From Dioszegia crocea (Eukaryota; Basidiomycota; Tremellomycetes; Tremellales; Bulleribasidiaceae): a stretch of 64,000 nucleotides of DNA. A program made the translations under genes and the position numbers. Below, piece after piece: positions 38,340-63,458 of the stretch (position 1 is the first letter of the stretch; every line of letters starts with the position of its first letter). The notes below the pieces were generated by a model that was given only the letters and a program-made list of their open reading frames with translations, did not search any database and had not been told where the DNA came from. The stretch covers positions 2,510,809-2,574,808 of the forward strand of contig BCKK01000002.1 in the NCBI GenBank assembly GCA_001600615.1. The letters are read 5' to 3'.

Positions 38340-38669
38340 TGCGTCCGGGATGAGTAGTCGGGAAGTTGAGGAGTACAGTTGACGGTTTTGAGGCTGCGGA
38401 AGTTGGATCTGGGTACGGACGGAGAGTAAAAGTCAAACGCAGGATGAGGGCTCAGTAATGTTTATAATGCCCCCAGGTGCCACACTATGCGAACACGGTC
38501 CAGGACTCCAATCCAGACTCAACAACACATTCCTTGCACCGGTTATCGCCGCCGGAAGCGATAGCCGGCTGGTTTAAACAAGCTTGGCTATGTCTTTCAT
38601 CGTATAGCTCTACCTATACTTTGACGCTCGAGACGGGGTCGGCAACCATACACCAGAAGAGCTCACATC
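38340..38669. other. Intergenic region upstream of the ABCD transporter
   Basis: 330 bp between two plus-strand genes, holding the 3' region of the zinc finger gene and the ABC transporter promoter. No gene or repeat seen. Confidence 0.5.
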
Positions 38670-42656: not shown

Positions 42657-45579
42657 TCAGTCTCGCCCTAAGGTCGTCTCCAGGAAAGACTGATCTGGTC
42701 GTTATCAGCCTCCAGCAGAAAAGACAGCATTAGACTCACAATCTAGCCCCGCAGGATCCTCAGATCTGGGCATGTTCTCGCATAAGAAGCGAATGGTTTC
42801 GCGAGGCAGATGGGCCTGCTGGAAGTCGAGCTCGGTGACGTATGGCTGGGAGGATCAGTTCACGATCAGACCAATATGCAAGAAGCGTACCTTATCGCCA
42901 GCCATACTTCTGAAAGCCTCTCTGAGCTGCTCAGATGACGACGAGTCATCTTTGGTAATGTCCACCTGTTTGTAAGTAGGATTCTGGTTCAACAGTCGCA
43001 GTTGACTCACAAGCAACGCCAGCCACGCCTCGTAGGTCACAGCGCCGTACTCGCTTTCTAGATCCAAGTAGATTGCCTGCAGCTCTTCATCCTACACATC
43101 GTCAGGCCGAATCCGGAATGAGATGAGATCGACATACTGCGTATACAATGCCAAGACTGGCCAAAGCAGAGTGCATCTCCCACACCATGAGCGTCTTACT
43201 GTCAGCGTTGCGTGCGGGGATGACTTACATTTGTATCGTCTTTATCGAAATGCTTGAAGGTCGCTTCAAACTCCTCCAACTTCGCAGGCGTCAAGTTCGT
43301 ATGTGTCGCCGAAATCATCTGTGCCGATCAGCTTGAATCTTCAGATACAGTAATTAACAGATCAGCAAACCTGGTTCTCGACAAATGCAATCTTTGCCCG
43401 GATTCCTCTCTCGGCCGACTCGAGCTCGTACTCAAGATCATCATAAGTCAGAACGGTATAGTCATTCTCTTCAATCTTTGCCTCTTGGCATCGATCATGC
43501 ACGGCGAGTATGTCCCCTTGGAGAGTCCGTCTGAGCAGTGCTGGGATCTGCGACAATTTGAGCAAGGTCGTCTTCTGGTCCTAATCCCATTAGCTACAGT
43601 CTGTTCACACGGGGAATGGCCTACCGACAAGGCACCAGACAGACTTCCGATGCCCAGCTCAATCTGCCGTAGCTTGCTCATGAAGTCGTCCGCCTTGGAT
43701 GCGAATTGTTTTCGCAGCTCCTCCTTGATCCTATCGTATCAGCCAGCACCGAGACCGATCGAAGAGCGACTCACCCGCGTATTCTCGCATTGATCGCCCT
43801 ACTTCTCTTCCCCTCGTCCGCCAAAAACGCCGCCCAGTCCTTCTCTAGGTCTTCTAATCTTCTCCCGGGTGCCGGTTCCCACCTATGTAGCCCATATGTC
43901 CGCAGCTTTGTCTGGATATTCGAGTATAGAGCGCCGAGCTCTTGCTTCTCTCGACCCCACTGTCGCTTGGATGTCTTCTTGTACTCGGCAAATTCGGTCA
44001 GGGCAAAGATGGCTGATATATAGTCCGAGGGAGGTTGCGCCGCTGCCCAAGAGCGCTGGGTGGAGGAGAGGGATGATAGGAGTAGGGAAAGTCGGCGCTC
44101 AAAGTCGGTCTGCCAGAGCAGGATGGAAGAGATTAGATCGGCGAACTTTTGGACTCGACGGGCACCTGTCTCCATCTTGTCTGATCGTTAGTTATGCAGA
44201 CGCAAATCTCACCTTCTTGCGAGAATCGATGGAAGAACTCTGCGACGTATGTCATTACACTTCTTTCGTCGGGCACTTGGACGTCGCACAGATCCTTCAC
44301 CTCGAGCAGTGGCTGTTTGGTCAGCCACGCCGAGCGCTGCGACATACCGGTATGCCCAATTCCTTCTCCGCAACTCTTAGAGCTAACTCGGTGTTTCCTC
44401 TCTTATCTGACTTGTCGAGCTTGTGGTAATCGAGAAGTTCAGGTCGGTGGCGGTGGATCAAGGCGCAGCTGAGGTATGAGTCCCGCTCCGCCAAACCGAC
44501 TTACAGAGCTAAACCATCGGCGAAGCTACTCTTGAAGTTCTGCACGTCCACCTCGGCATAGGGCTGGGTCTTCCGCTGACACCAAAGGAGCAGGCCATCT
44601 TTTGCTGACAGTCCTTCCTCCCTTCCTGAGTCAGCTATCTTCAAAGTCTGATTGTCTTGGGCAGCTCACGTTATTCCAGCGATGGTGAAGCGAAGAATCA
44701 ATGTCCAGATCTGAGCCATCAGCATACAGGCAATCAGACCTACGTACCATGCCAAGGATAAGCTTCAGATTCCCGTCGACGATGTCTTCGGGGCCTGACT
44801 GGTTAGCTCAGATCCAACGCCTTCACGGACTTCATCGGTACTCACCGATGTTCGTTAGCTTGACACCGCTGTCTCTGATGAACTGCAAAGCTTTTGCAGC
44901 ATTCTTGGGATCAGCGATATGGACAGAGTGAGACCTACCTCTGCCTTTTGAACTCGCATCATTGGCTTCTTGTTGTATTTCCCAAGACTCTGATCGGACA
45001 TGACCTCCTGTACATCTTAGCGTACAGCTCATGAGATGCCGGAGTCTCTACTAGACACACCAATATCTGAGCGTCAGCTGGATATTCACCTGCGAGTGGA
45101 ACGGTAATCAGACTCACCTGAATCAGCTTGACCCCATTGGAGAAGTCCTTGACCAGATCCGTCATGGGCTCAAGATCGGCCGCGTCAAGCTTCGCATTCA
45201 GCCTTCTCATCAGCTCTGAAAAGACCGGTAGAGGCGCCACCTTACCATCTACAGAATGTCCTATCGTGTCAGCCGAGCAATAAGGTAACAGCGCCGACAC
45301 TCACCTCGCTTGGATATCGCTCCACTCGCCCTCCCGTCCAAAGCCCAAACTTGCACCTGGACTCATAGGTGCACTGAGCATATTTGGCGATAGCGCAGAT
45401 TTCCTACTGCCAGCAGGACTCATTGGGACGCTACCCATACCGCCTCCAACGCCGCCGGTCTGTTGTCTCTCCAGTCCATTCGAGGTATTGATGAGGCCGC
45501 CCAGCGTCCCGAGGGACTTTGAGTGTCTATGTGACGAAGATGTGGGGGTGGAGGCGTGCTGCGAGCCACGGCGGTCCAT
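42657..45579 (-). CDS. Alpha-actinin (two CH domains, spectrin-type rod, EF-hands)
   Basis: Twenty exons: 45305-45579, 45246-45260, 45118-45202, 45061-45066, 44939-45007, 44846-44903, 44748-44794, 44670-44710, 44505-44621, 44348-44468, 44213-44312, 43775-44180, 43625-43730, 43371-43580, 43229-43318, 43138-43194, 43011-43091, 42891-42965, 42740-42845 and 42657-42694, giving 700 residues. A Ser/Gly-rich N-terminus (1-85) precedes CH1 ([20 protein letters not shown] ... [17 protein letters not shown]) and CH2 ([12 protein letters not shown] ... [21 protein letters not shown]). A helical rod and EF-hand region ([12 protein letters not shown]) follow. It crosslinks actin in the cytokinetic ring. 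Exons 2 (15 nt) and 4 (6 nt, ATATTG) are micro-exons needed for the CH1 core [15 protein letters not shown]. Confidence 0.9.
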
Positions 45580-45905
45580 GATGGCTGAGTGAAGGGTAAT
45601 GGCCGGAAAAAGTCAACTGGAAAATGAAGGTATGATGGTAGCGAAACCTTAAATTCAAGATGAAACAAGCGCGTCTTGTGTCATTCCAGTCGCGTCGCGC
45701 GTACAGTATCATGAGCGAACAGGCGCAATCCCGTCTCGGTCTCATTCCCTGCAACGGGGGAGCTACGGTAGAGCTAGTGTGCACAATTTGTGACAAGCTT
45801 AGACCAACATATGTATTCCCGACAGACAGCAAACCCACAACCTGGCCAGAACCCGCGGATCAGTCCGCCTCTGCCCTCGCCGAGACATCCCTCTACTGTA
45901 CTTGC
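45580..45905. other. Intergenic region, promoter of alpha-actinin
   Basis: 326 bp between the alpha-actinin start and the 3' end of the next minus-strand gene. Nothing notable seen. Confidence 0.45.
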
Positions 45906-47162
45906 TCAGTTCTGACGATCAGCCCTAACTCAGCCCGCAAACTCACCTGCAGGTCATCGACACACCAGCCACACGCCTCGCACGGGGGAGCATTCTTGAT
46001 ACTTTTGTATCGCCTACTATCGCCGCTGGTGTGGGAACGAGGGGCCATACTGAGGGTAGGATTGGCGGCAAGTGAGTCTCGCGTCGACTCGGTAATAAAG
46101 TCGAGTACATCACGTTCCATGAATCGAGGAGGGAGGTACGCGTCGACGGATATGAAGGGGTGCTTGGCTTCCTTTGATCTGGCAGGATCGAGTCGACGCC
46201 AGCCGGTCTCGCGGACGAGCATATGAGTACCGATCGCCCTGACTAGCGACGAGCCAACCTCCTGGATGTCGTAGTTGGACTTGGCGTCGCTGAACGTGCA
46301 GTACCACCTGCTGTTCCCTCCGACAATCACAGGGAAGTTTCCGGCCTCGGCGTCGATGTGGACCCGATGCTCGATCCCCTTGGGCCCCCGCCAATCCTTG
46401 GGTGGAAGGTCGCCGGCGTACCAGAATTGGGAGATGTAGGTGAGAGGACCGAAGTGGACGTGTTGACAGAAGTACGACATGCGCTTGGGTTTGATCAACG
46501 CTGATATGGCGCCTCGGGTCTGTCTCATGCGTTCGGGCATATTGAGGATGGGTGGTTTGGTTTGCCATATCGGCTGCCATATGTCCGTTTGGCCGCCGAA
46601 GAGAGCACCAGTGGAGATGGACAAGAGGTTGACCATCGTATCTCCCGCCTCCGCCGCCGCGCTCGTCATCCAGTCCGTCTCCTCCCCGCACAATTCCGCC
46701 ACCTCAAGATTTTTGGGTCCGCATAAATTGAAGAATGCGCCGCCGTGTCGCATCAAGGTGGTATACGGCGCGTGCCCCTTGTCGCAGTACTCCAAGAAGA
46801 GACGCTCAACTCTAGCGAGTAGCTGAGCCTTCGATTGGATGCCCTTGGCAGATGATGGACGATAGACGTTGACTGTGAGGGAAGGGAGGTGATCGACGAC
46901 GGCGACTTTGTATAGGAAGGGGGCAGTGAGATTGTTGAATAGCTGGCGTCAGTATGCTCTTTGTCAGACTCACCTTGGAGACTCTCATCAGCGTTGCTAA
47001 AGGAGTCTGGCCATAAGCCGAACGCTCGTTCTTGCCAGTAGGCGGGGGCAGGGGACACTGGAGATGCGAGATGACCTAGTGATGAGCTTAGGCCCGATTC
47101 CCTGATGGTGAGACTGATCATACCTTGAGCCATACTTCTGGAGGTAGTTCAAGCGTAAACAT
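45906..47162 (-). CDS. F-box protein, substrate region unknown
   Basis: Four exons: 47124-47162, 46974-47075, 45947-46942 and 45906-45911, giving 380 residues. The N-terminus MFTLELPPEVWLKVISHLQC ... LATLMRVSKLFNNLTAPFLYKVAVV is a convincing F-box, restored only when the first two introns are removed. The following 300 residues have no repeats I recognise. Near the end is a Cys cluster (PPCEACGWC). The last coding exon would be only AAC TGA. If that intron is retained, the frame continues 16 more codons and stops at 45893. It probably works as an SCF adaptor. It is unrelated in sequence to the F-box-like pair at the left end of the window, apart from the F-box. Confidence 0.55.
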
Positions 47163-48171
47163 ACTTAACAATCGTGCAGTAAAGCAAGACACAAGATGAG
47201 ATGAAAGTATGGGTGAAGATAGATCTTTGAGATTCGCGTCGGTCGCGTTGCGCGCGTCGCGTCCGAGCGGGCACGGGTCCAGCTGAACATCACATGTTGA
47301 CGATGCAGAGCTCCACCGCAGTAGGTATACCAGCTCATGGTCCGCTGTTGATCTTGAGTACTCTCAAGGGGTCAAGACTGACTACTGCGACTGAATATCT
47401 CCAACTCATGCGCCATCTTTGCAAGCTCTACTCGTGCGATCCGCAAATCTTTTAGCAATTCCGGGCCACAACTATTCGTCGCCTGCGTATTTGTATCAGT
47501 GAGCAGAGGCACAAGTGAGAACCCGAGGACCTGTATGCACTGCATATACAGTACATACGTCCAGGCTCCTTTGCTGAGTCGATAGACACAGAACAGAACG
47601 ATTCAACAAAGAACAATTAAGGTTTCGGAGACGTCGCGAAAGGGATCCGAAGTGTATCGGATCGGTCCTTTGATGCCGTAATTTTCCCTGATTTTGGCAG
47701 GGTTCGGAGGTTTACTTGACCCTGAATTGGGGAATTCGCTTACAAGTCCGAAAGATCTTCCTTATCCGACGAGATCTCGAGCAGGCTTGTCCAGGCTTTC
47801 CTTCTGGTCCCCGGCCTCTCTCTCAAGCATATATACTTGTTCCGGTGCACAACATCAACAACAACAACAGCATCGACTCATGTTCAATCCACATCTCATC
47901 TTGCACTTCGTATAGAGCGCAGTGTCCTTCTGCCGATTTCCAGCCACACGGGACTCACTCTCAAAAGGTGCCTGAAATATTCGCCTCCCAACTCTCCCCC
48001 CGTGTCTTGGTTGTCCCCATTCAGCATTCTCACAATCCACCCTTTGTCAAACAACCAATTAAATACCACCTTGTTTGATCAAAGGCATCATCAGTTTTTA
48101 GGGGAGATTGTGAGTGGAACCCAACTCCGTTTGGCCTTTGCATCCATCGGCTGACACGACAGCCAGCCACG
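47163..48171. promoter_or_regulatory. Long divergent promoter region, F-box gene / OPT transporter
   Basis: 1.0 kb between divergent genes without a supported coding region. It has a TATA-like CATATATAC about 345 bp before the OPT start, followed by a CAA-rich, unstructured stretch near 47850. This suggests a long OPT leader. Small open frames in it have no domain or composition support. Confidence 0.45.
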
Positions 48172-51100
48172 ATGGAAGACCGTCCACAACGTCCACATAC
48201 CGACACCAGTCCCACTCCTCCCCGCCCTAGAACGAGTCAAAGGCCTCGGACAGGTGCATCTCGAGCGCCCCGTCCGCCAACGGCCCGGCCAGATACTTCT
48301 GCGAGTGGTATCTCTGCCGATGAATTACCTGATCAAAAATTCTTCCCTGAGGATGACGGATTTGACGAGGAGGAGGAGGAGATGTATGAGGAGGACGAGC
48401 CGGACGAGGAAGGGGTTTTTGCGTTTGCTCGTCCGCAAACCCGAGCAGTACCCAACGCAAACTTCAGCGGGTCTGAATATGACACTTCTGCCCCGGGGAC
48501 TGGCGTATCGACATTCACCTCCAATCCGCCTCTGACTTCGGAGTCACGAAACACTGGTCACAATTCGGGCGGTCCGTCGAACGGTCTGAAGACTCCCTCC
48601 GATCTCGGATCTGGCAACGTCGATGCAGGCGGCCGCATACCCGAACTAGAGTACGACTCTAGCAACCCACCCATCTTTTCGGGCAAGAATAATCTCAACA
48701 ACTCTGCGTTCGCCTTTTCGGTCTCGTCACATGGCTCGAGGAAACCGTCGAGTCAGGGCAAGCAGAGCCTTTTTGGCCGAATCGCGCGCAGACCGATCGG
48801 CACTGCGTCGACCGATATGACGGGATCTACCGGAATCACCGGTACGACCGAAGCATCACGCTCGCGCACATCTTTTGGCTCGGACGATACCGGCGGGTTA
48901 TCGACGGATGGCGGCCAGAAGCAGCCCAGGCGGATGCGCTCAGGCGCCCCGTTGATTCCTTCCACAGCGGGGTCCGGGTACTCCAGCTCAGATGGCACGA
49001 CGAGTAGGGGGTTTAGTCGAGGCTCGTACGGAATGACGGAGATGACTGGGGATATGACCATCCCGGATGGGAAGACGACGTGGGGTGATGGATCGGGTGG
49101 AGCAATGAAGGATATAAGCGAGCAAGGCGAGGACATTCCGGCCATGTCCAGCGACTTTGGGGACGAGGATAGTCCGTATCCTGAAGTCAGGGCGTCAGTC
49201 AGTAATCTTGACGATGTAGACATGCCTTGTAAGTCCTAAGGAGATCCGAGCTGACGACAGCCCTCACCTTCCGAGCTTGGTTTCTTGGTCTCCTCTTCGC
49301 CATCGTTGGGTCCGCCATCAATACCTTCTTTCACTTTCGAAACCCTTCACCCTATATCTCTCCCTTGATTGTACAGTAAGTCAAACCTCGGTCTTTGCTC
49401 ATCATCAGGGTCATCGCCTATCCTGCCGGCAAATTTGCCGCATGGTGTCTCCCCATTCGCACTTTCCACAATCCCCGCTGGCTCGGGGGTTCGGAATGGT
49501 CATTCAACCCTGGTCCTTTCAACATCAAGGAGCACGCAATCATCACGATGATGTCCAGCGTGGCTATCGGTCCAGCCTACGGTCTTTGGGTCGTCGTCTC
49601 GTCCGAGCTATACTACATGCGGCCGTTTGGCGTCGGCTTCAACATCATGTTCCTATTCACCACCCAAGTCACAGGTTTCGCCTTCGCTGGGCTGTGTAGG
49701 CGGTTTGTGGTTTGGCCAGCGAGTATGATATGGCCTGGGGTGCTGGTGATTTCGACGAATTTGAACACCCTACATGCAGAAGAGGAGGGATTCCAAGGGT
49801 CCATGACTCGATTCAGGTTCTTGCTCTACACTGGAGCTGGCGCATTTGCGTGGTACTTCCTGCCAGGTGAGTAAGGTGTGGGTTGGGGCTGATTTCAGGT
49901 TATCTCTTCACATCGCTGTCCTACTTCTCTTGGATTTGCTGGATCCGGCCCGACAATCCTACCGTCAACAATCTTTTCGGCGTCAACACTGGGCTCGGCA
50001 TGGGCATCCTCACTTTCGACTGGTCCCAAATTGCCTGGATTGGATCTCCGCTTGTCATCCCCTGGTGGGCTATTGTCAATGTCGGAATTGGGTTCGTGCT
50101 GTGCTATTGGATTATCGTGCCTATACTTTACTTCACCAACGTAAGTTCAGTAAGAAGCTCGCGCTGACGGCAGGTCTGGGAGTTTGCGTACATGCCCATC
50201 AGTGCCATCCAGATTATCGATCGCTTCAGTAGCCCCTTCAACGTCGGAAACATCATCAATTTTGATGACTTCACCCTAAACACTACCGCCTATGCGGAAT
50301 ACTCCCCTCCATACCTCTCAGCAGCATTCAGCATGACCTTCATGCTTGCCTTCGCCCTCACATCGGCTCTCGTCGTACATACAGCACTCCATCACGGCCC
50401 TCGAATCTACAGAGCCATCATCAATGTTAAAACCGAGGCCGACGACGTTCACTCCAAGCTCATGAAGCACTATCCCGAGGTGCCGGATTGGTGGTTTGGC
50501 GTACTCCTCGCTGTCTTTGGGATAGTCTTCGGGATCGTCTCGATCCAGGTGTATCAGACGGGATTGCCAGTCTGGGGCTATTTCTTGTCCATCCTCATCC
50601 CCGCCGTCTACATCCTCCCCGCCGCCTTCATCTTCGCCATGACCAATCAGCTTATCGCCATCAACCTCATCGCCGAATTGATTCCGGGATATCTGTTTCC
50701 TGGACAGCCGATACCCTGCATGGTGAGTCTACCTGTCGACCAAGCTGATAGCAGCTCTTCAAATGCTTTTCGATGCAGACAGTTTCCGAAGCTCTTACCT
50801 TTACCCAAAACATGAAGCTTGGTCACTACATGAAGGTCCCTCCACGCCACACCTTTGTCGCTCAGACCACCGCCATGCTCGTCTCCTGTCTCGTGCAAAT
50901 CGGCACCAAGAATCTCCTATTCGCGGTCGTGCACGACATGTGCGCATCCAACCAGAAGGATCTGATGACGTGCAACAGCACCAAGGTGTTCTTCACCAGT
51001 AGTATCATATGGTGAGTGATGTTTGCATTCGCGCTGACTGGTAGGGGTTTGATCGGTCCGGGACGTTTGTTCTCAAAAGGGGCAATGTACGCTCCCCAAG

Positions 51101-51610
51101 TCTGGGCTTGTGCTGTCGGCGCCATCCTCCCTATACCCCTATGGTGGTGGGTCCGCCGCCACCCTCGGTCCATCTTCCGAAATGTCAACCTTCCCGTTTT
51201 GTTCAACGGCCCACTCGGTATACCCCCGGCCACGGGCATCAACTACGCAAGTTGGTTAGTTACAGGCTTCGTGTTCCAGTTCTGGCTCCGGAGACGGAGA
51301 TTCGCTTGGTGGTCCAAGGTGAGTTGAGCTTTGCTGGTGCGAGCGAACTGGCTGACTTGCAGTACAACTACGTTCTATCTGCCGCTCTCGATGTCGGCAC
51401 AGCCCTTTCTGGTCTGGCCATCTTTTTGTTCCTCCGCCTTCCTGGGGTTGATCTTCAGTGGTGGGGAACTCAAGTGTACCTAAATAGTGAGTGCTTCTGT
51501 TTTGTCTGACGGAAGGGTGTTGTCTGATGTCCGCAGCTGGAGATTGGGTTGGTCTGCCATATCTCACCGCAGATGAGAATGGGTTCGGTCCGACTACCTG
51601 GAATTCCTAG
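48172..51610 (+). CDS. OPT-family oligopeptide transporter
   Basis: Nine exons: 48172-49228, 49261-49375, 49409-49866, 49899-50140, 50174-50722, 50755-51011, 51045-51318, 51363-51486 and 51537-51610, giving 1049 residues. The first 350 residues are acidic and Ser/Gly/Thr-rich, with no membrane segment. The remaining 700 have 12-16 hydrophobic segments and the OPT signatures NPGPFNIKEH, SSVAIGPAYG, FYxxPAAxF-like VYILPAAFIFAMTNQLIAINLIAELIPGYLFPGQPI and LGHYMKVPPRHTF. The peptide-transporter branch (Opt1/Isp4) rather than the yellow-stripe branch fits the NPG motif and KxPPR loop. It imports 3-12-residue peptides with protons. Its downstream neighbour on the same strand is a Qsp1-like peptide precursor, a possible substrate source. 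Confidence 0.92.
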
Positions 51611-53939
51611 GCAACTAAGCCAAAAGTATGATCGTTGTAAAGTATGTTTGTAGTTAGTAGAGCTCTTCGTCGCGCTGTTGAAGTCTTGCAGCGGCAAGAG
51701 TAGAGAACCTTTGGGCACTCAGTCCTCTGTTGCAAACTTGTTGTAGTATGAATGCTCATTCATGTAACACTGCCTCATCGGATCTAAGCTCCACCTCGAG
51801 TCTAGCCACGATTGTATAAAGCGGGATCCCTCGCAGAGAGAATCGTGGCGCTGTAGAAGCGACATTGACTCGCGATGAACCTCGGTAGAGTGGGTTTGGA
51901 TATCTAGCATCCATTACTGGTAGCGAAGACGGACGCCTGCCATTCCTCATCTCTCAGCTCGTGCCAATCCGTCCAAGCCTCGCCCTCATCTCTTCCTTTC
52001 GTCATCACTTGCACTACACCCTACTCCACCGCATTCCCCGGGCCGAGGGCGGAGACCCGGCAGGTATGACCGCATGCCCGACAATGAAGACACTCTGCTT
52101 GAGGGTCTACACCGTACAGCCAAGCTCACGTCGATGGCTCGATGACGATGCAGCCAACTCTGGTCAAGGATCTGTGATTGACGTGCAGAGGCATGTGGCA
52201 CCTTGCTCGTGTGGCGATCCTCTCTAGATTCAGGAACCAGGAACGGAAGCTTGCTAGCTGGACCTGACGCTAAGACTTGCGCTGCTAAACTTCAGACCAC
52301 ACACGTAACTTGTGCTAGCGGGACTTTAGCTCGGGCCTCGGCGGCGGCGGCAAGGCAAGGCTCATGCCCAGTAAAGCCAGCCGCGGGCCCGCGGCCGATG
52401 CTAGGAGTGTGCAACGTAAGGCAAAGAGCGCAATGACAGCGCCGCAACGTAGCAGCTTGGTACTTGCCCAGCCCTGGACAAGGCAGCATGTAGGCTGTAG
52501 GGAGGTCGGCATCCCTGCAGGGAGGCTGACAAGTTGGCTCAGCCATTTCATATTGTGATGACTCCAGCCGGGGCTCCCGGAGTGCGCGGCGCAGATCTGG
52601 ACACCACATGGCTGTGGATGCGCAAAACTCTGATCGTTATCAGTTCCGTCATTATTCATAGTCCGTCATACATGCTCAACCGGTGGCAGACAGGTGGCGG
52701 TCGCCGTAGGTCGTGCCTGAACCTGAACCACCGAAACGCCAAACGGGACATCCACTCTCCCTCCACCGGCGGTTAGGATGTCAGAGCTGAGATCTGAGAG
52801 AAGTGCTATCTGAGACTTATCAGAGTCCGCCGATCAGTCGATCGGGCTAAGGCACCGCAAGGCACGAGGCACAGTCGAGGAAGGTTGACAACGTTGAGGA
52901 ACGCCATCAGACGCCATCACGCCCTTTTGTCCGGCGACGGAATGCCCGATCCCGTCATGATAATCGCATCGTGGAAGTCAGGCACGCTTGGACGATGTTG
53001 AAACCGCCACTCTGAAACTCGCCATGTGAAACGAGGTTGCCGCTCCGATTGCAGTCGCCATCCACGTCAGACGTCCAGTCAAATCTGGTCGGGAAGAGCG
53101 GCTGAGTGTGTGCGGGGAAGTTCCATCAAAGGAGGAAAGGGGGCCCACGTCAACTAGCGCCGAACTTTAAGAGGCGCTAATCTACTTTGGGTAATCTCGG
53201 GACCTTCGTTTAATTTGGCTCCACAGAAGCCGTCACGGCGCGTCACGGCCGCAAGATGTCACACAAGGAGTAATTGCCTGAATAGGTAATTCTTGGAATC
53301 TTGCACCGCCGTTTCATATTACGTGCAGTCTACTAGCTCCCTTAATTGACTAGATTTGTGTGGTCCACAAGGTCCCGATAAACGCTGATCGCGCTCCAAT
53401 TGACGGGTTTCAAGTTCGCCGAGTGCCGCTGCGGCGCCGCCCAGGAACCAACGCCTAGCCGGGATGTAACGTTAAATGTCAACGAGGAACGGGCGGGGCT
53501 TGGCCAAGGGTCCCGCCCAGTTCCTCCTGTGAAACGCGTCTCTACCCTTTGCTTGATTACATCCATAACTGCCCGGGCTTTCCATATACAACGAGAATCC
53601 CGCGACCTTGCCCTGATTACATCAAAGGCACAATCAAATATCCTTGGACGACGCGCCTCGCTCTCATTCCTCGCCGACGCCTCCCACCGCTGATCCACCA
53701 AGTAAATCTCAGGCACAAACTGGCGCTTCCGATCCCTTCACGACGCCACCAGCTCCATACCTCCCGAAACGTTCATCGCTTATTATCCCTCATTTTGCTT
53801 CGCGATATATATAAACCAGCACATTCTTCCCTCGAATCCCATCCCCAGTCTCAAACCAAATCAACCTAAACCACTCCACTCCACCTACATCTCCACACTC
53901 TCCACTCCTTACCACCCAACCCCACCTACGAACACTACA
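51611..53939. promoter_or_regulatory. 2.3-kb gene-free interval upstream of the Qsp-like precursor gene
   Basis: This is the longest interval without a gene in the window. No open frame longer than about 115 codons occurs, and none has domains or splice support. The middle (52300-52400) is very GC-rich, while 53160-53340 is A/T-richer. The last 60 bp before 53940 are almost purine-free on the plus strand (CCACTCCACCTACATCTCC...), typical of leaders of very highly expressed genes. A TATA box lies at 53806-53815. The size suggests a heavily regulated promoter. A non-coding RNA cannot be excluded. Confidence 0.5.
53806..53815 (+). promoter_or_regulatory. TATA box of the Qsp-like precursor gene
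   Basis: TATATATAAA, 125 bp before the ATG and followed by a pyrimidine-rich leader. It is the best TATA element in the window. Confidence 0.6.
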
Positions 53940-54338
53940 ATGAAGTTCCTTGGCCTCTTCGCTCTCGCCGGCCTTGCCCTCGCTGCCCCCGCTCCTCAGC
54001 GTCCCGGCCAGGCTGCTACCTCCTCCTCTGCTGCTGCGGGTTCCCCCAGCCAGGCATGCTACAACCGAGCTTGTGAGTAACCATTCCTTAGATGCAGGGC
54101 CTTTGCTGATATCATAGGCGGTGGTAACTACCCCTGGAAGAAGGACACTGTCGAGATCGTCGAGCGTGCTCCCGAACCCGTCGCCGAAGTCATCGTCGAG
54201 CGCGCCCCAGAGCCCGTCGTCGAGGTCATCGAGGCCCGTCAGCGCCCTGGCCAGGCTGCCACCTCTTCCTCTGCCGCCGCTGGCTCCCCCTCTCAGGCGT
54301 GCTACAACCGAGCTTGCGGCGGAAACTACCCCTGGTAG
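53940..54338 (+). CDS. Secreted two-copy peptide precursor resembling Cryptococcus Qsp1/Cqs1
   Basis: Two exons: 53940-54072 and 54118-54338, giving 117 residues. Residues 1-15 (MKFLGLFALAGLALA) are a signal peptide. A 32-residue unit, starting QRPGQAATSS and ending CYNRACGGNYPW, occurs twice, at residues 20-51 and 86-117, with no amino-acid difference. Copy 1 is followed by KKD, a dibasic processing site; copy 2 ends at the stop codon, so both can yield a free Tyr-Pro-Trp end. The spacer repeats ERAPEPV-EVI twice and ends in EAR. The peptide end resembles Qsp1 (NFGAPGGAYPW), a secreted quorum-sensing peptide: the last 11 residues share Ala4, Gly6, Gly7, Tyr9, Pro10 and Trp11. Unlike Qsp1, each copy has two Cys. 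Peptide boundaries are inferred. The single intron splits a Cys codon inside copy 1. Confidence 0.85.
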
Positions 54339-54711
54339 ATGCTAGGCTGGGCGGGCGGTTATAGATTCTTCTAGGGATATCCCCTTGCTTCTTCTTTTCA
54401 TTTCTTCCTGGCGATTTTATGAGGTTATGTTGTGACTACGATCTATCATACGGTATCTTTATGCATCTTACGTTCCTTATGCTTGCCCATTGTCGTTCAC
54501 GATGCGTTACCTCTCCTGCCAACGCATCTTCCTTTGCAGTCGATGTTTGCTCGGTGGCGATGTGTTGATCTACCCAAGATGCGACACCTAATTGAGACAG
54601 CATCACCCGCCTCGTGCTTCTTGCAATGTCTTGCATTTGGGTCGTCATACATGCCGGTGATTCATGCATGTCTCGAATTTGCTTAGTCATACATGCCAGC
54701 CATCTATTGAC
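54339..54711. other. Convergent intergenic region, Qsp-like precursor / transcription factor
   Basis: 373 bp between two stop codons. It contains the 12-bp direct repeat GTCATACATGCC at 54644-54655 and 54686-54697. No gene seen. Confidence 0.5.
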
Positions 54712-57154
54712 TCATTCTGAACCCAAAAACTCGAATGCGCTCCCTAGAATAAATGGCCAGTCCGCAAACAGGTCTTCGCCTGAGAACTGCGTCCCACTCG
54801 GATGTGACCCCGCGTCCAAGCGACCAGCCGCATTACCAAGCACAGTACCGGACGCTACTGGCTGAGCACCGAAAGAGTATGCTGATGATCCAGCGAATGA
54901 AGCTAGAAGGGATGGGTCGATGAGATGATCCGGGAGGGACTGGGATTGGACTAGAGCGTCAAAGTCGATAGAGGCGAGATCGAAACCGGCGCCGCTGGTA
55001 GTGTTGTTCGGCCCATTCAGCGCGAGTGGGATGGGAACTGGTGGCAAATTCGGGACGGTCTGGAATGCTGTTGCCGCCGGTACGGTCATTGTCGTACTCT
55101 GTATTTCGCTTCCGGATTGTTGACCGCCGCCACCATTACGGCTAGGCGTCGTACTCCTCTCCGCATTTGCCTTCCCTCTGTCTCCACTGCTTCCGATCCT
55201 CCGCAAAGCATGCACCACCCCTCGTCCTTCTCTTTCGCGCGCAGCCTCCTCCATCACTCCATCGATCTTCTCAATATGCGTACGGAGTCGTTCCGCAATC
55301 CCCGCCGTGCGCGATAGAACCGATTCTAGTCCCGAGAGCATATCGGCCATGGACAAGAGGCAATTGCGCACTTGGAGATAGGTCCATTGGTTGAGGGAGC
55401 GCGATTTGGGATGTTGGGAGAGGGGGATCAAGAGGTGGCCTATACCTGCGAGATGGTGGAGCTGATTGTCAGATTATCCACTTTGAGAACTTACGACAGG
55501 GGCACTGCATGCATACAGGTACGCTGTAGGGACGTTGGATATCGCGTCGAGAAGATCACCAGCAATGGCGCACCGCTGCGCGATACTGTTCTCCCCGCTA
55601 CCTGCAACGACCATTTTGAGGGTTTGCAAGGTGATGATGATGTTGGTGGCTGATGTCAGCTGTTGGCCTATATTGGGCTCACCTTGAAATCCCAGCTTGT
55701 TGAGATCATCATCCTCCCCTAGTGGCGCAGCAGATCTCAAGACCTCTGGTAGCTCGCCGTACATTCTCCCGACCAAGTCCAGAATGTCGGATTGAGCCGG
55801 CCCAACGCCTCGCTCAAACAATTCCGACACCGGCCCTCCTTGTCCCGATACATCCTCGCCGTGACCTCCTCCCCCAAATCGATTTCGGCGGATTCGGACA
55901 CGCTCGATTGCGTGCTCGAGGATCCGGTAGAGATCGGTCACAAAGTTCCAACCTCGGAACCAGGACACGAGCGGCGTGCCGGGACCGTGAAGCTTCAGGG
56001 TGGTGGGTGTAATGTCTGAATCCGAGGTAACTTCTGCCGGATAAAGCACGGTCGTTTCCGACTCTCTGTGACGAGCCGTCGCTCCCCAGGTGCACGATGT
56101 GTAGATGTCCAATTGATATGTTGCCCAAAACTAGTATCAGCAGTGCTCTTGGCTGAACTTACTAATCTTCGCCTTTCCTGTATCTCAACGTTGTTCAGGC
56201 CGACTGGCCATCGCCCTTCGAGATGAAATCCATCCATTGCGCACATCGTACAGTAATCCCCCAGGTAGCGCTGAAGCCCACGCGTGTCTCCATATTGGAT
56301 ACACAGCAAAGCCATGTTGCTCCTCGCGCGTTTGTACTCGAATTCTGATGCAGCCGTCAAGTCGGCGGGGAAAGATTCTTGCGCCTGTGGTCAGTCGAGC
56401 TTTGCATATACGTACGGCTTGGTAGAAGGCCTCGGAGGGTACGCTGACCATACTCGGGGTGATGGGATGGGTCGGCGCACTTGCCCCGTCCCGTATACGT
56501 GCGGAAGTCAAGGCGCACAGCGACATCAGATCGACATAGAAAGGGCGAGAGTGGACGTATAGCCCATCTCTTACGCGATTGAGAAGAGTCGGCAGATGAT
56601 AGTAGGATTGTCTGGTGTCAGTAGAGCATGGTGACAACGTACATTGGGTAGATAGCGGCAGTGTAGAACGCAACAAGCTCTTCGATGACTGTGTGAGGTG
56701 CAATCTGACGATATACCCAATCTTCTGCTAGTGGCGGTAGAGATTGGGGAGGATACACTGGTGGTGTAGCTTCGTCTGCCTCTGAAGTTTTTGGCGGTGG
56801 CTACAGTCAGCTCGGTCGTAATCTCGGCTCACCCCTCGTCGCTTCGCCGGCCGATTGTACGTGCACTCGGACGCATACGCCTTGCAGGGTCCGCAGACGC
56901 CTTCTACGGGACCAGCAGAGCACTGAATCAGCAAATGCCAGGGCTTGTCTCACCTTAATGCCGCCTCTATGGCACCTGTCGCACGCTCGCTGTTCTCATG
57001 AGCTGGAATTTGCTTTGTGTAAAGCGTCAGGACGGACCGTTTTCCGGCGTTTTTTAGGCGAGCCTGGCCCTTCGTGGTTATCTTTTCTAGTTTCTGCAGA
57101 TGTGCTGAGCGGGGTGGGAGGCTGTCCTGCCTCTATCAGTGTTTGGGGTTCCAT
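54712..57154 (-). CDS. Zn2Cys6 fungal transcription factor
   Basis: Nine exons: 57038-57154, 56954-56989, 56833-56922, 56643-56800, 56416-56611, 56163-56384, 55683-56130, 55495-55649 and 54712-55461, giving 723 residues. Residues 36-72 hold a basic lead-in (KKRRKT) and a perfect binuclear cluster CX2CX6CX8CX2CX6C (C42, C45, C52, C61, C64, C71). The middle is the fungal-specific regulatory domain: FYTAAIYPIQSYYHLPTLL, LMSLCALTSARIRDGA and FWATYQLDIYTSCTWG. The C-terminal 150 residues are Gly/Ser/Asn-rich with an acidic-hydrophobic end (FADWPFILGSAFEFLGSE), plausible as an activation domain. The first donor (GTCCGT) is non-consensus but is the only way I found to join the basic region to the first Cys. 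It is convergent with the Qsp-like precursor. Confidence 0.85.
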
Positions 57155-57303
57155 ATTGGTGGTAGATGGTTGTGTTGACAGTATCAGCGGCCGTAATAGT
57201 AGGGAAATGGAGATGGATTAATCTCCGTTGTTGATGTGGAGGCGAGGCAAGACTTTCTGCCTCACTCAGTACTCAGACTCAACTTCTCTACATACACCCC
57301 ATC

Positions 57304-58831
57304 ATGTCTTGTGGAAACGCTGCAGATGCTGCTAAGGAAGAGGGGGAGCCTCTCATGCCTAGTAGGTCCTGCTGAAAACTCCGCTTATCCCCTAGAACGG
57401 CGCCACTTCCTCCGTACCGATCCGAAATTATGTGTTCGATGCCACACCGCCCGAGGAGCGTATATGCTCAGATCTCTACCCTACTGCCCCGACTGTTTCT
57501 TCCCCTCCATCAAACAGAGATTCATTCGACACATCTTTGGCCCCCTTCGACCCGGCAGCAGCCGTAAGAATGCCATCCGGCCCCCAATCCAGGCAGGCCA
57601 GGTCGTCGTTGCCGTCTCAGGCGGTGTAGGATCGATGGCGATGTTGAGTCAGCTACAGGAGGCTGGACTGGTGGGGAAAGGGGATGGAGCAAGGGTGGAC
57701 AAGACCAAGGGTGAGAAGGAGGTGGTCTGGGAGCAGGGTACATTGGTGTATGTCGAATTCGCCGGAGTGACAGGTATGGCGGAGAGAACTGCGGAAATGG
57801 AGGATGTTGCCAGGAGTCACGGGCTGCGCTTTGTGGGGATAAGAGCGGAGGAAGTCTTTGACCGGAAGTTGGAGGAGCGCTTGCGGAGCGGTGAACCAGG
57901 AGGTAAGTCGAAGCCGTGTCGAGCTGATGACAGCTTCTTCGGACCATCTTGACCGCCTTCGCTCCCTCCTTGCTTCTCTCCCATCGGTGTCACGTCCATC
58001 TATACTTCAGACCATCCTCGATCATCTCCTCACCCTCGCTGCTCACTCTCTTCCAAATGTCTCGCATCTCCTGCTCGGCGAGACTAGCACCCGGGAGGCT
58101 CAACGCGTTATATCCGCCACCGCCACCGGGCGAGGTTGGGCTCTACCCCTTGAGCTAGCTGGGAAGTTCATACTACCCTCGGACAGCCTCAGCGTGATGC
58201 GGCTTAAACCAATGAAGGAGATCAGTCTGAAGGAGGCAGCGATCTACTCGCATCTGCGGCGCTTGTCCACGATGAACGAGCGGCGGTGGTTAGATGGCAG
58301 GTCATCCGGGGGCAGAGGGAAGGGCAGCACCAGCCTGGAGATGTTGACTGAGCGTGAGTTATGTCAAATGACCGTCTGACCCAGGCAGAATTTGTACTCG
58401 GCCTCAGCGTCACCCATCCGTCCACCGTGTCTACCATCAATAAAACGGGCGATAAGCTCGTCTTCTCAGGTGACGTGTCTGCCGACTTGTGTCCACTGTG
58501 CCAAATGTGAGTTTCGATAAGGTCTGAATTAATCTCTAGGCCCGCAGAACCATCCGCCCAGGCCTGGAAATCACGTACAGCCCTGACGACTCTCCCCGAC
58601 AAACCCTCCCAACCACTTGAAGATATTAATCACCAGCGCTCTCGGCTGGATCCCCTCTTGTGCTACGCATGCCTTACCACTCTGGGCGCACACACGGCTG
58701 GCAAGGTGCAAGGTCTGAACAACGACGCGCTGGATCTGGACCTTCCCATCTGGGTGCAGGACCGGGTAGAGCAGAGACGAGTGGTCAGTCAGGAGGAGAT
58801 GAGGAAGGGGATAGAGGAATATCTGCTATAA
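57304..58831 (+). CDS. NCS2: Cytoplasmic tRNA 2-thiolation protein 2 (Ctu2/Ncs2)
   Basis: Five exons: 57304-57361, 57396-57902, 57934-58353, 58389-58506 and 58540-58831, giving 464 residues. The N-terminus has PLMPKRR and a Cys pair (KLCVRCHTARG), then YCPDCF. The PP-loop-like motif AVSGGVGSMAML lies near residue 105. The C-terminal half has HLLLGETSTREAQRVISATATGRG and two further Cys pairs (LCPLCQ, LCYAC). With Ncs6/Ctu1, this protein puts sulphur on wobble U34 of tRNA-Lys, -Glu and -Gln in the Urm1 pathway. It is divergent from the Zn2Cys6 gene, with 149 bp between starts. A degraded copy of its last 90 bp lies just downstream. Confidence 0.85.
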
Positions 58832-59075
58832 GATTGATATTTCGCATGTGAGAGCTGGAGCTTCCCATTTGGGTGCAGGACCGGATAGAGCAGAGAAGAT
58901 AGGAGGAGATGAGACAGGGAATAGAGGATATCTGCTGTGAGACATAGGATCCGCAGGATGACTGGATCGAGGTGTGTCCATCGCTCGGTTCAAGTGGGAT
59001 ATATGACAACTAGAAATTACATCATTATAACTACTCTGTAGTGCCCCTCTACCTACCTAACAGCTAGTCCGCGCG
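58832..59075. other. Convergent intergenic region, NCS2 / CPL1-like gene
   Basis: Contains the degenerate duplication listed separately and no gene. Confidence 0.5.
58861..58940 (+). repeat. Degenerate tandem copy of the NCS2 3' end
   Basis: This stretch repeats 58742-58831, the last codons of NCS2: CTTCCCAT-TGGGTGCAGGACCGG-TAGAGCAGAGA, then AGGAGGAGATGAG and ATCTGCT-T. A deletion removes about ten bases in the middle, and several substitutions and a frame change follow. It lies after the NCS2 stop codon, so it is not translated with it. The intact copy is the one with an open frame. Confidence 0.85.
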
Positions 59076-60759
59076 TCAGACGCAAGCATTCTCTTCCAAA
59101 ATATAGCCCGACATACAGCTAAGTACTGCAATCTATCAGCTAGCATTCCCTACAGCTGCAATCCACTCACCCTTGCACTTTCCCTCCTGGCATAAAACTC
59201 CATCAACATTGGGGAGGGCAGAGCAGTCTGGACCGATGCATGAGCCACATCTTTCGAGATTGGTGGAGGTGTCCGATATGCACTGCAAATGTCAGTTAGA
59301 GCGGAGTGGGCGAACTGAAAGCTCACCTCGTAATGGAAACCTCTCTGCTTCCTCCCGATAGGACTGACTAGACACATCTCCTCCTCAGCACGGCATTTGG
59401 ACTTGGCGTAAGAAGCTCGACGCTGCAAGCTTCCCTACATTTATCAGCGAGAGACGAGTCACGGCATGGTGATAGACTTACGGTAGGATACGGATCGGTC
59501 GAGCTGACGGTGAACTTCCTCGTAGTGGGTAAAGAAGAGTAGGTGCCCTGCGCATTCGGAGACGCCACCACATTCAAGATGTACTGCGCGTTGCGCAATT
59601 GACTCCACTGGAAGGAATACGCGCCATTCCCATCCGTCATCACGGTCACGGACTGCTGATTGGGTAAGGAGATTGTGACGAATCCGCACCTGCTGTAGCC
59701 GGAGAAGATCGGACGACTGGTAGATACAGGAACAGCATGGACTGGTTCCCCGTCGCTAGCGCCAGGCTGTAGGATGATGGGAGTATCGCAGATGATGGTG
59801 ATTGCGACAACGCGGCTGGAGAATGTCTTGTTGGTGTCGGACGCGTAGAGTATGTAGTAGTGGTGTAGACCGTAGGATTGGTTGATCAGGCGAGAGGAGA
59901 AGTAGCCTGACCCGTCGGTCGTGATTGACTGGATCTCGCCAGTCTCCTGGGACATGAGCCGCAGCAGACCGGTATCGCAGTCCGAGCCCACATCGACAGT
60001 GCCGCTGAGCACGAAGTCAGTTGTGGCTGTGCTGGGACTACGGTGGCTGGTGATGAGAGGGGCTTTGCACTGAGCGTCAGCTTGGTTCACGGTAAAGGGC
60101 GAATGACTCACAGCGCCCATAGTCTCCTGCGAGATGACTTGGATGTTTGTCACGCGCGATCGCGCAGAGTCGGATTGCCCGTCAGAGCTTGCAATGGCAG
60201 TCATAGCGTACGCGCCATTGCTCAGAGGCTGCGCCCGGACGTTGAAATAGCCATTATTTGTCGCGACGGTGACTGATGGGTGACCGAAGATTTCGATAGT
60301 GACAAATGGACAATCACTCCGGCCTATGATAGCGGGACGGTGAACCACAACGACCACCGGCACATCGGGGTCATAGTCGGCTTTGGTGTCATCGCCACGG
60401 GGAGTATCGATTGTGGGGGTATTGCAGACGATGCTGACGGTAATGACGGAGGAACGAAGGGTAGAGTTGGTCGGGTGGACGAGGTAGTAGTGTTCCTTGC
60501 CCAGTGGTCGATCGCGGATGGTCCGGGTGAATCTACCAGACGCGTCGACCGATATAGACCCCTCGATAGTTCCAGACTCCTGCGATACGAGGAGGAACCT
60601 TTTGCTGCAGCCGGTCGCGACTGAAGCAGAGCCGGTGATGGTGAAGGTAGTCCGCGTGACGGTACGTATGGAGGCTCCATCGATGACAGGGGCGATACAC
60701 TGAGCGTAGACAGTGGAGAGGAGGAGCAGGAAGGTGGAAAAGAGGGGAAAAGCCAACAT
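59076..60759 (-). CDS. Secreted protein with repeated beta-type domains and CPL1-like Cys-rich tail, copy 1
   Basis: Five exons: 60112-60759, 59482-60069, 59327-59434, 59171-59282 and 59076-59125, giving 501 residues. Residues 1-20 (MLAFPLFSTFLLLLSTVYAQ) form a signal peptide. Four related beta-rich units follow, alternating between FTITGSASVATGC/FVLSGTVDVGSDC type and RPAIIGRSDCPFVTIEIFG/RPIFSGYSRCGFVTISLPN type. This is a duplicated Ig-like pair. After TDPYPT comes the basic LQRRASYAKSKC stretch and the CPL1-type tail: CISDTSTNLERCGSCIGPDC, LPNVDGVLCQEGKCK and CMSGYILEENACV. This tail is known from secreted basidiomycete proteins. A cell-surface or effector-like secreted role is inferred. 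The first intron (42 nt) is in frame and stop-free. The gene upstream is a paralogue. Confidence 0.8.
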
Positions 60760-61344
60760 ATCGGCGGGTGGTGCGAATGTAGCGCTGGTGGGGGGAGGGA
60801 GGGGGCAGTCGAGAAGGGGGCTGAAGATGGGGTGCTGAAAAGCCTGTCTTCATCATTTAGTATGTTAGCTGCCCCTTCAGGTCATCAATCAGCGTCGCCG
60901 CTTTGCTGGCCATCCCTTCGCCCATCCTCTGTCTCCATGACACACGTCTGCGCACTCAATCAACCAGTTTCAGCGCGTAATTCCCCATCCATGTCAGTGA
61001 GACACACCAATCTGCTTGGTGGATCTCGGACTATCCTCTGTGTGTTGGACGTGGACTACATACAGCCGGAATGTACAGAGTGACATGTGTGGAAATGACG
61101 GAGGGGACGGTGAAATTCGCCGAGTTGTGGATGTCTCACTCTTCGAAATTTACATCCGCGGAGAGGACATGTCTTGACCTCGGCGTGCCTGTTGAACCTA
61201 AATGCATGTTGATCTCACAATCAACCCTGCGCCCACTCTACAGCTTAAGCCGTGTGATGTGAATGCCAATGCGATACTCTATACTCTATCTATCTCTATT
61301 ATAGACGCTTGTCCCCCACAGCTCTCTCCAGTAGCCGGCCCGGC
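60760..61344. promoter_or_regulatory. Promoter region of CPL1-like copy 1
   Basis: 585 bp between two minus-strand paralogues. It has a pyrimidine tract with repeated CTAT (61275-61303). No gene and no duplicated coding remnant were recognised. Confidence 0.45.
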
Positions 61345-63034
61345 CTATCTGGCCCGAACACAGGCCCGATTCAACAAGTAATACCCCCTAAGACAACTAT
61401 GGACTGGGATGATCAGCACCTGTCCTCATTGGATGTTGCTCGATCAGCTTGACTGGCTTACTTTTGCATATCCCTTTCTCGCACGAAACGCCGCTAACAT
61501 TGGGCAAAGAAGAACAGTCGGGCCCCGAACACGATCCACAGCGCTCAAGGTTGGAAGAAGTATTGGAGATGCACTGTGATTGTCAGCCAAGGACAGCCTG
61601 GGAAAGGAGAGCGCACTTCATATCGGAAGCTCTTCTGCTTCTTGCCAGTATTCATCGGGATGAATGGGCACAATTCTTCATGAGCGCCGCATCTGGATCT
61701 GGCGAGGGATGCCCTGCGTTGCATGCCTCCCTGGTATGTCAGCGAGAGAAGTGATCGATCAGAAGCAGACTTACTGTGGGATAAGGATCAGTCGATTCGA
61801 CCATCATATTACTCTGGGATGCAGGCGACGAATAGGTGCCCTGCTGATCCACCGCAGCAATGGCCACAATTGGGTATAGACCATTGCGCAATTGCTCCCA
61901 CTTGACAGAGAATTCGCCAGCCACCACTGACGCCGTCAATTGCTGGGCGCCGACAGTGATTGCGACGTAGGGGCAATTGCTATAGCCAGAGATGACCGGT
62001 CGACTGGAGGGGACCGTAACAATATAGAGGCTTTCCGGGGGGAAGTAGACATCGCTCCTTGGCGAGAAGATGTAGGGAGCGTCACAGACGACAGTGATGG
62101 TGACATCGCTGCTGAGGTAGGCTTGTTGAACATCGGAATCGTACATGACGTAGTACTGGTGTTGGCCGAAAGGTTCCTCGTTGAGGAAGGCGGCGAAGGA
62201 TCCGCTACCATCAGTGGGGACCGTCGAGATTAGTCCAGATGTCCGCGACATGATCCGCAGTTGGCCATTGTCGCATGCGGATCCGACGTCCACGAGGCCA
62301 GTGAGGAAGAAGGTGTTGGGGGAGGTATCGCCACTTTTATGGCTGGTTATGACCGGAGGGTTGCACTGGCCATCAGCATTGAACGGGCAGGCGCTCACAG
62401 TTGCAGCCCCATCATTCGTTGTGACTCTTATCCGCTTCGTCTCCGAAGTAGCCGAGTGCAAACCCGGCTGGTAGGAATCGGCAACAGCCGTGATGGCATA
62501 TGATCCTCTTTCCAGATATTGCGATCGGACACTGAAAGTACCCGCCGCTGTCGTCTGTACTTTGACAGACGGCAAGCCGGGTATTTCAATAGTCACAAAG
62601 GCGCAATCGCTTCTCCCGCTGATTGTCGGTCGATTGCTTCTGACCTCGAGATTTTGGTTCAAAACTACAGGTTCATCGATGATGGGAATACCGCACATGA
62701 CGGTTATAGTGTAGAATCCGGAGCGGGAGGAAGTGATAGTGGGGTGTATCAATTCATATCGGTCGGTGCCCCAGCGCTGATTGGGGATTTCGACACGATA
62801 CCGGCCGGTGGTGGAGTCGAAGGTATCGATGGTTCCTATTACACCCTGCGCTTCCGACGTGATCTGGATGGGGACGCCACTACATTGCCCGAGTGTCGGC
62901 ACACGGCCTTCGAGGAAGAATGTAGATTGTGTGACATTGCGATCGCGGGGACCATCGACTCGGGTGGCCGCGCACTGGGCGTGGATGACGGGGAGGAGAA
63001 GGAGGAGGATGGCGCGTAGCGAGGATGGATACAT
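61345..63034 (-). CDS. Secreted protein with repeated beta-type domains and CPL1-like Cys-rich tail, copy 2
   Basis: Five exons: 62399-63034, 61775-62365, 61617-61730, 61462-61573 and 61345-61403, giving 503 residues. The exon number, intron phases and domain order are the same as in copy 1; exon 4 is 112 nt in both. A signal peptide (LLLLLPVIHAQC) is followed by the same four beta units (FFLEGRVPTLGQC, RPTISGRSDCAFVTIEIPG, FFLTGLVDVGSAC, RPVISGYSNCPYVAITVG). The tail is MQRRASLARSRC, CISNTSSNLERCGSCSGPDC, LPNVSGVSCEKGICK and CLRGYYLLNRACV. The first intron (33 nt) is again in frame and stop-free. Sequence between the motifs has drifted strongly, so the duplication is old or the proteins evolve fast. 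Confidence 0.8.
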
Positions 63035-63458
63035 GGCGAAGGTTGGGAGAGTGGCGGGGAAGAGTGGCGAGGGAAACTGCCTTCATTATGTACCTCATCA
63101 GTAGCCTTTCAGCGTATCACTCATTGACAGTTTGGCTCAGGGAACCCTTCATCAAACCTCTCATGTACCTCCGACCATCCGACAGGATGCAAGACCCAGC
63201 GTGGGTGAAAATCTCCGCTCACCCTCGCTCAAGCCTGACATACTGTGTGTCTCGGCCACACAACACATATGCACACACATGAGTTCAGAAAGGGATTGAG
63301 GATATGCAAGGTGTGTGCAAGGAATGCTGTTGGATTTTAGGGAAACAGCGAGAATTGCCCGAACCGGATGTGTCAAAGAATTCTCCGATTCCAAGAAAGG
63401 TTCTCGGTTGAGGCTCGGCAGTACCTGAAACGATAGCATATGGAGGTAAGATACACAT
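63035..63458. promoter_or_regulatory. Promoter region of CPL1-like copy 2
   Basis: 424 bp between the start of copy 2 and the 3' end of the Nop15-like gene. Open frames here do not join any conserved protein. A CA-rich patch lies at 63255-63275. Confidence 0.45.

Follow-up and report, generated by a model that had tools for sequence, protein, structure and literature searches.

A probable Qsp1-family precursor with a doubled peptide unit beside an Opt1 orthologue in Dioszegia crocea

Qsp1 is unusual among eukaryotic peptide signals in that it is secreted, matured outside the cell (by Pqp1), and active after import via Opt1. In Cryptococcus neoformans it is encoded by CNAG_03012, known as CQS1 or QSP1 (PMC8561399, PMC6687208), the imported form has 11 residues (PMC5959073, PMC5959062), Opt1 carries it into cells (PMC7537855, PMC8092252, PMC5959062), and QSP1 is adjacent to OPT1 (CNAG_03013; PMC2848560, PMC3618354), with which it has a common intergenic region (PMC2848560). 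The oligopeptide permease signals of Gram-positive bacteria are likewise secreted, processed and reimported, as in Cryptococcus (PMC7537855), although the proteins are unrelated and the likeness is in working only. Another described system is that of the Kex2-processed repeat proteins, such as that of Trichosporon oleaginosus, whose repeated peptide QSWGGCGGRGTPCW begins with Q, ends with W and contains two cysteines (PMC6339444). Here we analyse a 64,000-nucleotide stretch of Dioszegia crocea (contig BCKK01000002.1, positions 2,510,809 to 2,574,808; hereafter the window), in which a 117-residue protein encoded at 53940..54338 was originally predicted to belong, as a divergent form whose unit is doubled, to the Qsp1 family. 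The gene order, with the Opt1 orthologue next door, provides support for that prediction through a test independent of peptide likeness. Family membership is drawn from the C-terminus and the gene order, not from an alignment of precursors, and on this basis the protein is probably the syntenic orthologue of QSP1/CQS1 in another Tremellales fungus, in which the signal would be carried twice and would feed the adjacent importer.

The coordinates and the 117-residue protein of the original prediction hold, with an ATG at 53940 and a TAG stop codon at 54336-54338, and the reading frame requires one intron that had not been described (54073-54117, 45 nt, GTGAGT...TAG), lying in the second cysteine codon of the first unit. 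Besides its GTGAGT donor and TAG acceptor, it contains a CTGAT motif beginning 12 nt before its end; among the eight introns modelled in the neighbouring OPT gene, the donor is GTRAGT in all eight (GTGAGT in five) and CTGAY starts 10-13 nt before the end in seven. Retention of the intron places a stop at ACE*, ahead of GGNYPW, and splicing could therefore control whether either peptide is made. The N-terminus is typical of a signal peptide as judged by eye, and is followed by the first unit, a KK pair, a spacer, and the second unit running to the stop codon. The features to which we refer are as follows.

48172..51610, + strand: OPT oligopeptide transporter, 9 exons modelled by hand, 1049 aa, orthologue of C. 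neoformans Opt1 and candidate peptide importer
53806..53815, + strand: TATA-like stretch about 130 nt ahead of the ATG, a pattern match only
53940..54072, + strand: precursor exon 1, encoding the signal-like N-terminus and most of unit 1
53997..54137, + strand: unit 1, QRPGQAATSSSAAAGSPSQACYNRACGGNYPW, split by the intron
54073..54117, + strand: precursor intron of 45 nt that splits the codon for the second Cys of unit 1, with GTGAGT donor and CTGAT
54118..54338, + strand: precursor exon 2, encoding the end of unit 1, KK, the spacer with two 12-residue stretches IVERAPEPV(A/V)EV, unit 2 and the stop codon
54138..54143, + strand: KK after unit 1, the sole dibasic pair of the precursor and a candidate Kex2-type site
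54240..54335, + strand: unit 2, 32 residues the same as those of unit 1, ending at the stop codon

A comparison of the precursor with its own genome at E <= 10 matched only its own two exons. The open frame antisense to it (53793-54341) had no Pfam match above cut-off, and the predicted fold of the leader RNA showed nothing notable (z 0.51).

The two units, residues 20-51 and 86-117, are identical at all 32 residues, and both end in ACGGNYPW, with KK after the first and the stop codon after the second, as had been claimed. Their nucleotide sequences show 14 differences over 96 positions. Eleven of these are silent third-position changes, while the other three constitute one switch between the serine codons AGC and TCT that is unreachable by single silent steps. 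With 14 of 25 synonymous sites changed (dS about 1.0), the probability that only silent changes would have accumulated in the absence of selection is 3e-7 to 2e-6 for the 11 changes and, with all 14 included, 5e-9 to 6e-8, the ranges depending on transition bias. That so many nucleotide differences have left every residue unchanged argues that selection holds the 32-residue unit; recent gene conversion would have wiped out the silent changes too. The differences lie mostly upstream (12 in the first 21 codons and 2 in the last 11), which indicates that the upstream part of the unit is under constraint besides its C-terminal end. Such constraint would favour a product that extends beyond 11 residues, or else processing that depends on the upstream part.

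Of the last 11 residues, six coincide with those of NFGAPGGAYPW, as originally stated, and these include the whole GG-x-YPW end, which is present in both copies. A match of this extent has a chance of 3e-5 to 7e-5 by composition, and was reached by 152 of 200,000 shuffles of the same 11-mer (8e-4), values which are to be read in the knowledge that the comparison was post hoc. The inactive control peptide used for Qsp1 differs only at the second G of the GG pair (PMC5959073), and the GG altered in that control is retained in both units here. The locus resembles QSP1/CQS1 in its GGxYPW end, its Opt1 gene neighbour and, by eye, its signal-like N-terminus, and is unlike it in carrying two copies per precursor and two cysteines per copy, and in differing at 5 of the 11 residues, the Cqs1 precursor itself being outside the comparison. 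The exact NFGAPGGAYPW was not encountered; an orthologue from a different genus need not have an identical peptide, and identity is thus not family-defining. Codons for GGxYPW occur seven times in the genome (once in the reversed control), two of these being the copies described here, and none of the remaining five has a stop or a dibasic pair directly after it or, by eye, belongs to a secreted frame. Ends of the form YPW-stop are not enriched, the genome giving 50 pattern matches and its reversed control 57, with a pattern that also accepts TGG for the stop; 30 of the 50 were inspected, 18 had a real stop, and none of the 17 besides the precursor resembled a secreted precursor (by eye, introns ignored).

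The OPT gene is the next recognised gene upstream of the precursor, on the same strand, with 2.3 kb between its stop and the precursor ATG; nine open reading frames tested in this gap gave no Pfam match above cut-off, and no tRNA was found within 45000-60000. The gene model has very short introns, 6 of 8 being 32-33 nt (window 49229-51536). In a search that scored the 7995 candidates sharing most words, its closest relatives were Kwoniella and Cryptococcus proteins at 67-70% (among the best 120 of 1530). A PDB search with the OPT protein gave no placement of the transporter. One C. neoformans protein (P0007, from c45) is 69% identical to it over the 700-residue transporter part and carries P358, M484 and W932, the reference residues of OPT1 = CNAG_03013 (PMC8092252); P0007 is therefore Opt1. 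Searched back against the genome, P0007 found the window gene first, with 64-70% identity across the transporter and 49% across the N-terminal part, while the second-best of at least four OPT loci reached only 32-42%. A 31-row tree, built from the window protein and 30 of those 120 relatives, placed the OPT protein in a 17-row group with Cryptococcus (including C. neoformans Opt1), Kwoniella, Naematelia, Tremella and Kockovaella (support 95/93), nested in a 23-row group that adds Trichosporonales (99/98). These results identify the window protein as the orthologue of C. neoformans Opt1. They also point to the fungus belonging to the Tremellales, outside the sampled Cryptococcus and Kwoniella, its position inside the 17-row group not being fixed by the tree.

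The peptide gene consequently adjoins OPT1, or its orthologue, in both species. The chance of one given gene being an immediate neighbour is about 1/4000, and that of any of four OPT loci (a lower bound) about 1/1000, assuming about 8000 genes; for comparison, 8,626 genes are reported from the 21.29 Mb of a related yeast (PMC8664472).

Several points weigh against reading the precursor as a QSP1/CQS1 orthologue. The precursor, compared with 5.8 billion proteins, yielded 3136 candidates with none at E <= 10, and so no precursor-level homologue, while a probe in which the Qsp1 11-mer replaced residues 41-51 yielded 7 candidates, again with none at E <= 10; these negatives are no evidence of absence, as a match over 11 residues cannot stand out in a collection of that size and small proteins that lack annotation may not be in it, and the collection does include fungi of the Kwoniella/Cryptococcus type, from which the OPT relatives came. 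The five residues that differ from Qsp1 include a Cys in place of Pro. The comparison with C. neoformans covers the adjacency of the pair, not its order or orientation, and the OPT tree is midpoint-rooted and was built from rows that leave out the other OPT loci of this genome. Last, selection spans all 32 residues, such that residues ahead of the last 11 may matter as well, and a product of 32 residues would be large for an OPT importer.

This last point bears upon a reading within the same family, and compatible with orthology, in which the active product would be the entire unit of 32 residues, or a ring of at least 12 residues, e.g. CYNRACGGNYPW. The original prediction had combined a Qsp1-like 11-mer with a CX4C disulphide ring. 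The spacing itself is present, with cysteines at positions 21 and 26 of the unit, and Cys21 stands just before the last 11 residues. A Qsp1-sized 11-mer, YNRACGGNYPW, therefore has one cysteine and can form no ring, a ring requires at least 12 residues, and, on the predicted sequence, the two ideas are alternatives. The longer product would account for the sharp ends of the identity between the copies, at Q and at W, and for the upstream silent differences that keep all residues. On the other hand, the known imported Qsp1 has 11 residues, and the upstream part might be kept for processing alone. We regard a longer product as a real possibility, though one that falls short of an even chance.

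A peptide unrelated to Qsp1 by descent is a less probable explanation. The precursor could encode an alpha-factor-like product, processed by Kex2, ringed through its cysteines and sensed at the cell surface, with a YPW end that arose by convergence. Like the Kex2-processed repeat proteins, such as that of T. oleaginosus (PMC6339444), it has a signal-like start, repeats that begin with Q and end with W, two cysteines per unit, and XA/XP dipeptides: the APAP before unit 1 and the AP-EP-VA after VER resemble Ste13-type dipeptides by eye. The genome also holds a single locus with a Kex2-type P-domain and a single DPPIV-type locus. There are, however, only two repeats and one KK site here, against a minimum of three repeats with Kex2 sites in the published pipeline (PMC6339444), and such a peptide does not predict an Opt1 neighbour. 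No STE2 match was found in the genome, but no control genome gave one either, so that absence is not proved; STE3, found in the same way, has two loci. At a distance of 8 kb from STE3 there is a normal lipopeptide pheromone gene, and therefore mating need not rely on the doubled peptide. A mating-pheromone role for the doubled peptide is disfavoured on this account, the scan having taken in 27 kb of sequence surrounding the two STE3 loci. Overall, the alpha-factor-like reading appears unlikely.

The pheromone gene merits description in its own right: the precursor MDAFT...CVVA (L045:544-717, contig C2) carries the 16-residue unit DAENNRSMWTYGCVVA twice, and the two copies differ at 7 nt with no residue change. 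This fungus therefore has two peptide signals in doubled form.

Least probable of all, and in our estimation very unlikely, is a cysteine-containing secreted peptide of another role (antimicrobial, effector or cell-wall) that lies beside OPT1 by accident, which would suit the two cysteines per unit, the selection across the whole unit and a gene that itself has no assigned function, but which would require the Qsp1-like end and the Opt1 neighbour to be two independent coincidences and is not favoured by any known family, the Pfam/NCBIfam matches of the precursor being all below cut-off (DUF2321, E 0.012; a bacterial RiPP model, E 0.091).

If the precursor is the QSP1/CQS1 orthologue, it is reasonable to postulate a pathway of secretion, cleavage, import and intracellular action, steps that we infer. 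The precursor would go into the secretory path, where signal peptidase would leave APAP ahead of unit 1, and a Ste13-type enzyme could strip the APAP and expose the Q. A Kex2-type protease would cut at the KK after unit 1, with subsequent trimming giving a free ...GGNYPW end; copy 2 would obtain the same W end directly from the stop codon, such that both C-termini agree. At the start of unit 2 only one Arg precedes the N-terminus, presumably a weaker cleavage site. A short C-terminal piece of each unit would then be released, re-imported by the adjacent OPT transporter, and act within the cell as a density signal, import and intracellular action both being carried over from Cryptococcus. Besides the DPPIV-type locus, the genome has five subtilase loci, the Kex2-type one included, none nameable as Pqp1 from these data, and two WOPR loci not nameable as Liv3 from the same data.

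Other loci of the window may be noted briefly. The convergent downstream neighbour (54712-56934, - strand) includes an exon piece with half a Zn2Cys6 motif (PF00172, E 0.021, below cut-off), perhaps of a fungal transcription factor; two larger open reading frames within the same interval and strand had no Pfam match. Two long open frames further on (59371-60849 and 61742-63082, - strand) have signal-like starts and Ig-like/carboxypeptidase-regulatory matches below cut-off, and are perhaps tandem relatives. Exons of an ABCD-type (peroxisomal) ABC transporter lie at 38625-41056 on the + strand.

In literature searched mostly without full texts, we found no report of a conserved QSP1-OPT1 pair, nor of a doubled or cysteine form of the peptide, although the main Qsp1 papers (Homer 2016, Tian 2018, Lee 2007) may already note the pairing in C. 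neoformans. At its most speculative, and with rather little confidence on our part, the locus would represent an old two-gene cassette of signal and importer across the Tremellales, with the two-cysteine form linking Qsp1 to the cysteine-paired alpha-factor-like peptides of Trichosporon and the ascomycetes, and a pheromone type sensed at the surface having been turned into an imported quorum signal. More immediately, a Qsp1 relative outside Cryptococcus, of a different form and with the same importer beside it, suggests that signal and importer are inherited as a pair. It would also supply a search rule, namely small secreted proteins ending in YPW beside OPT1, and a natural variant that may show which residues are tolerated by the importer and the target.
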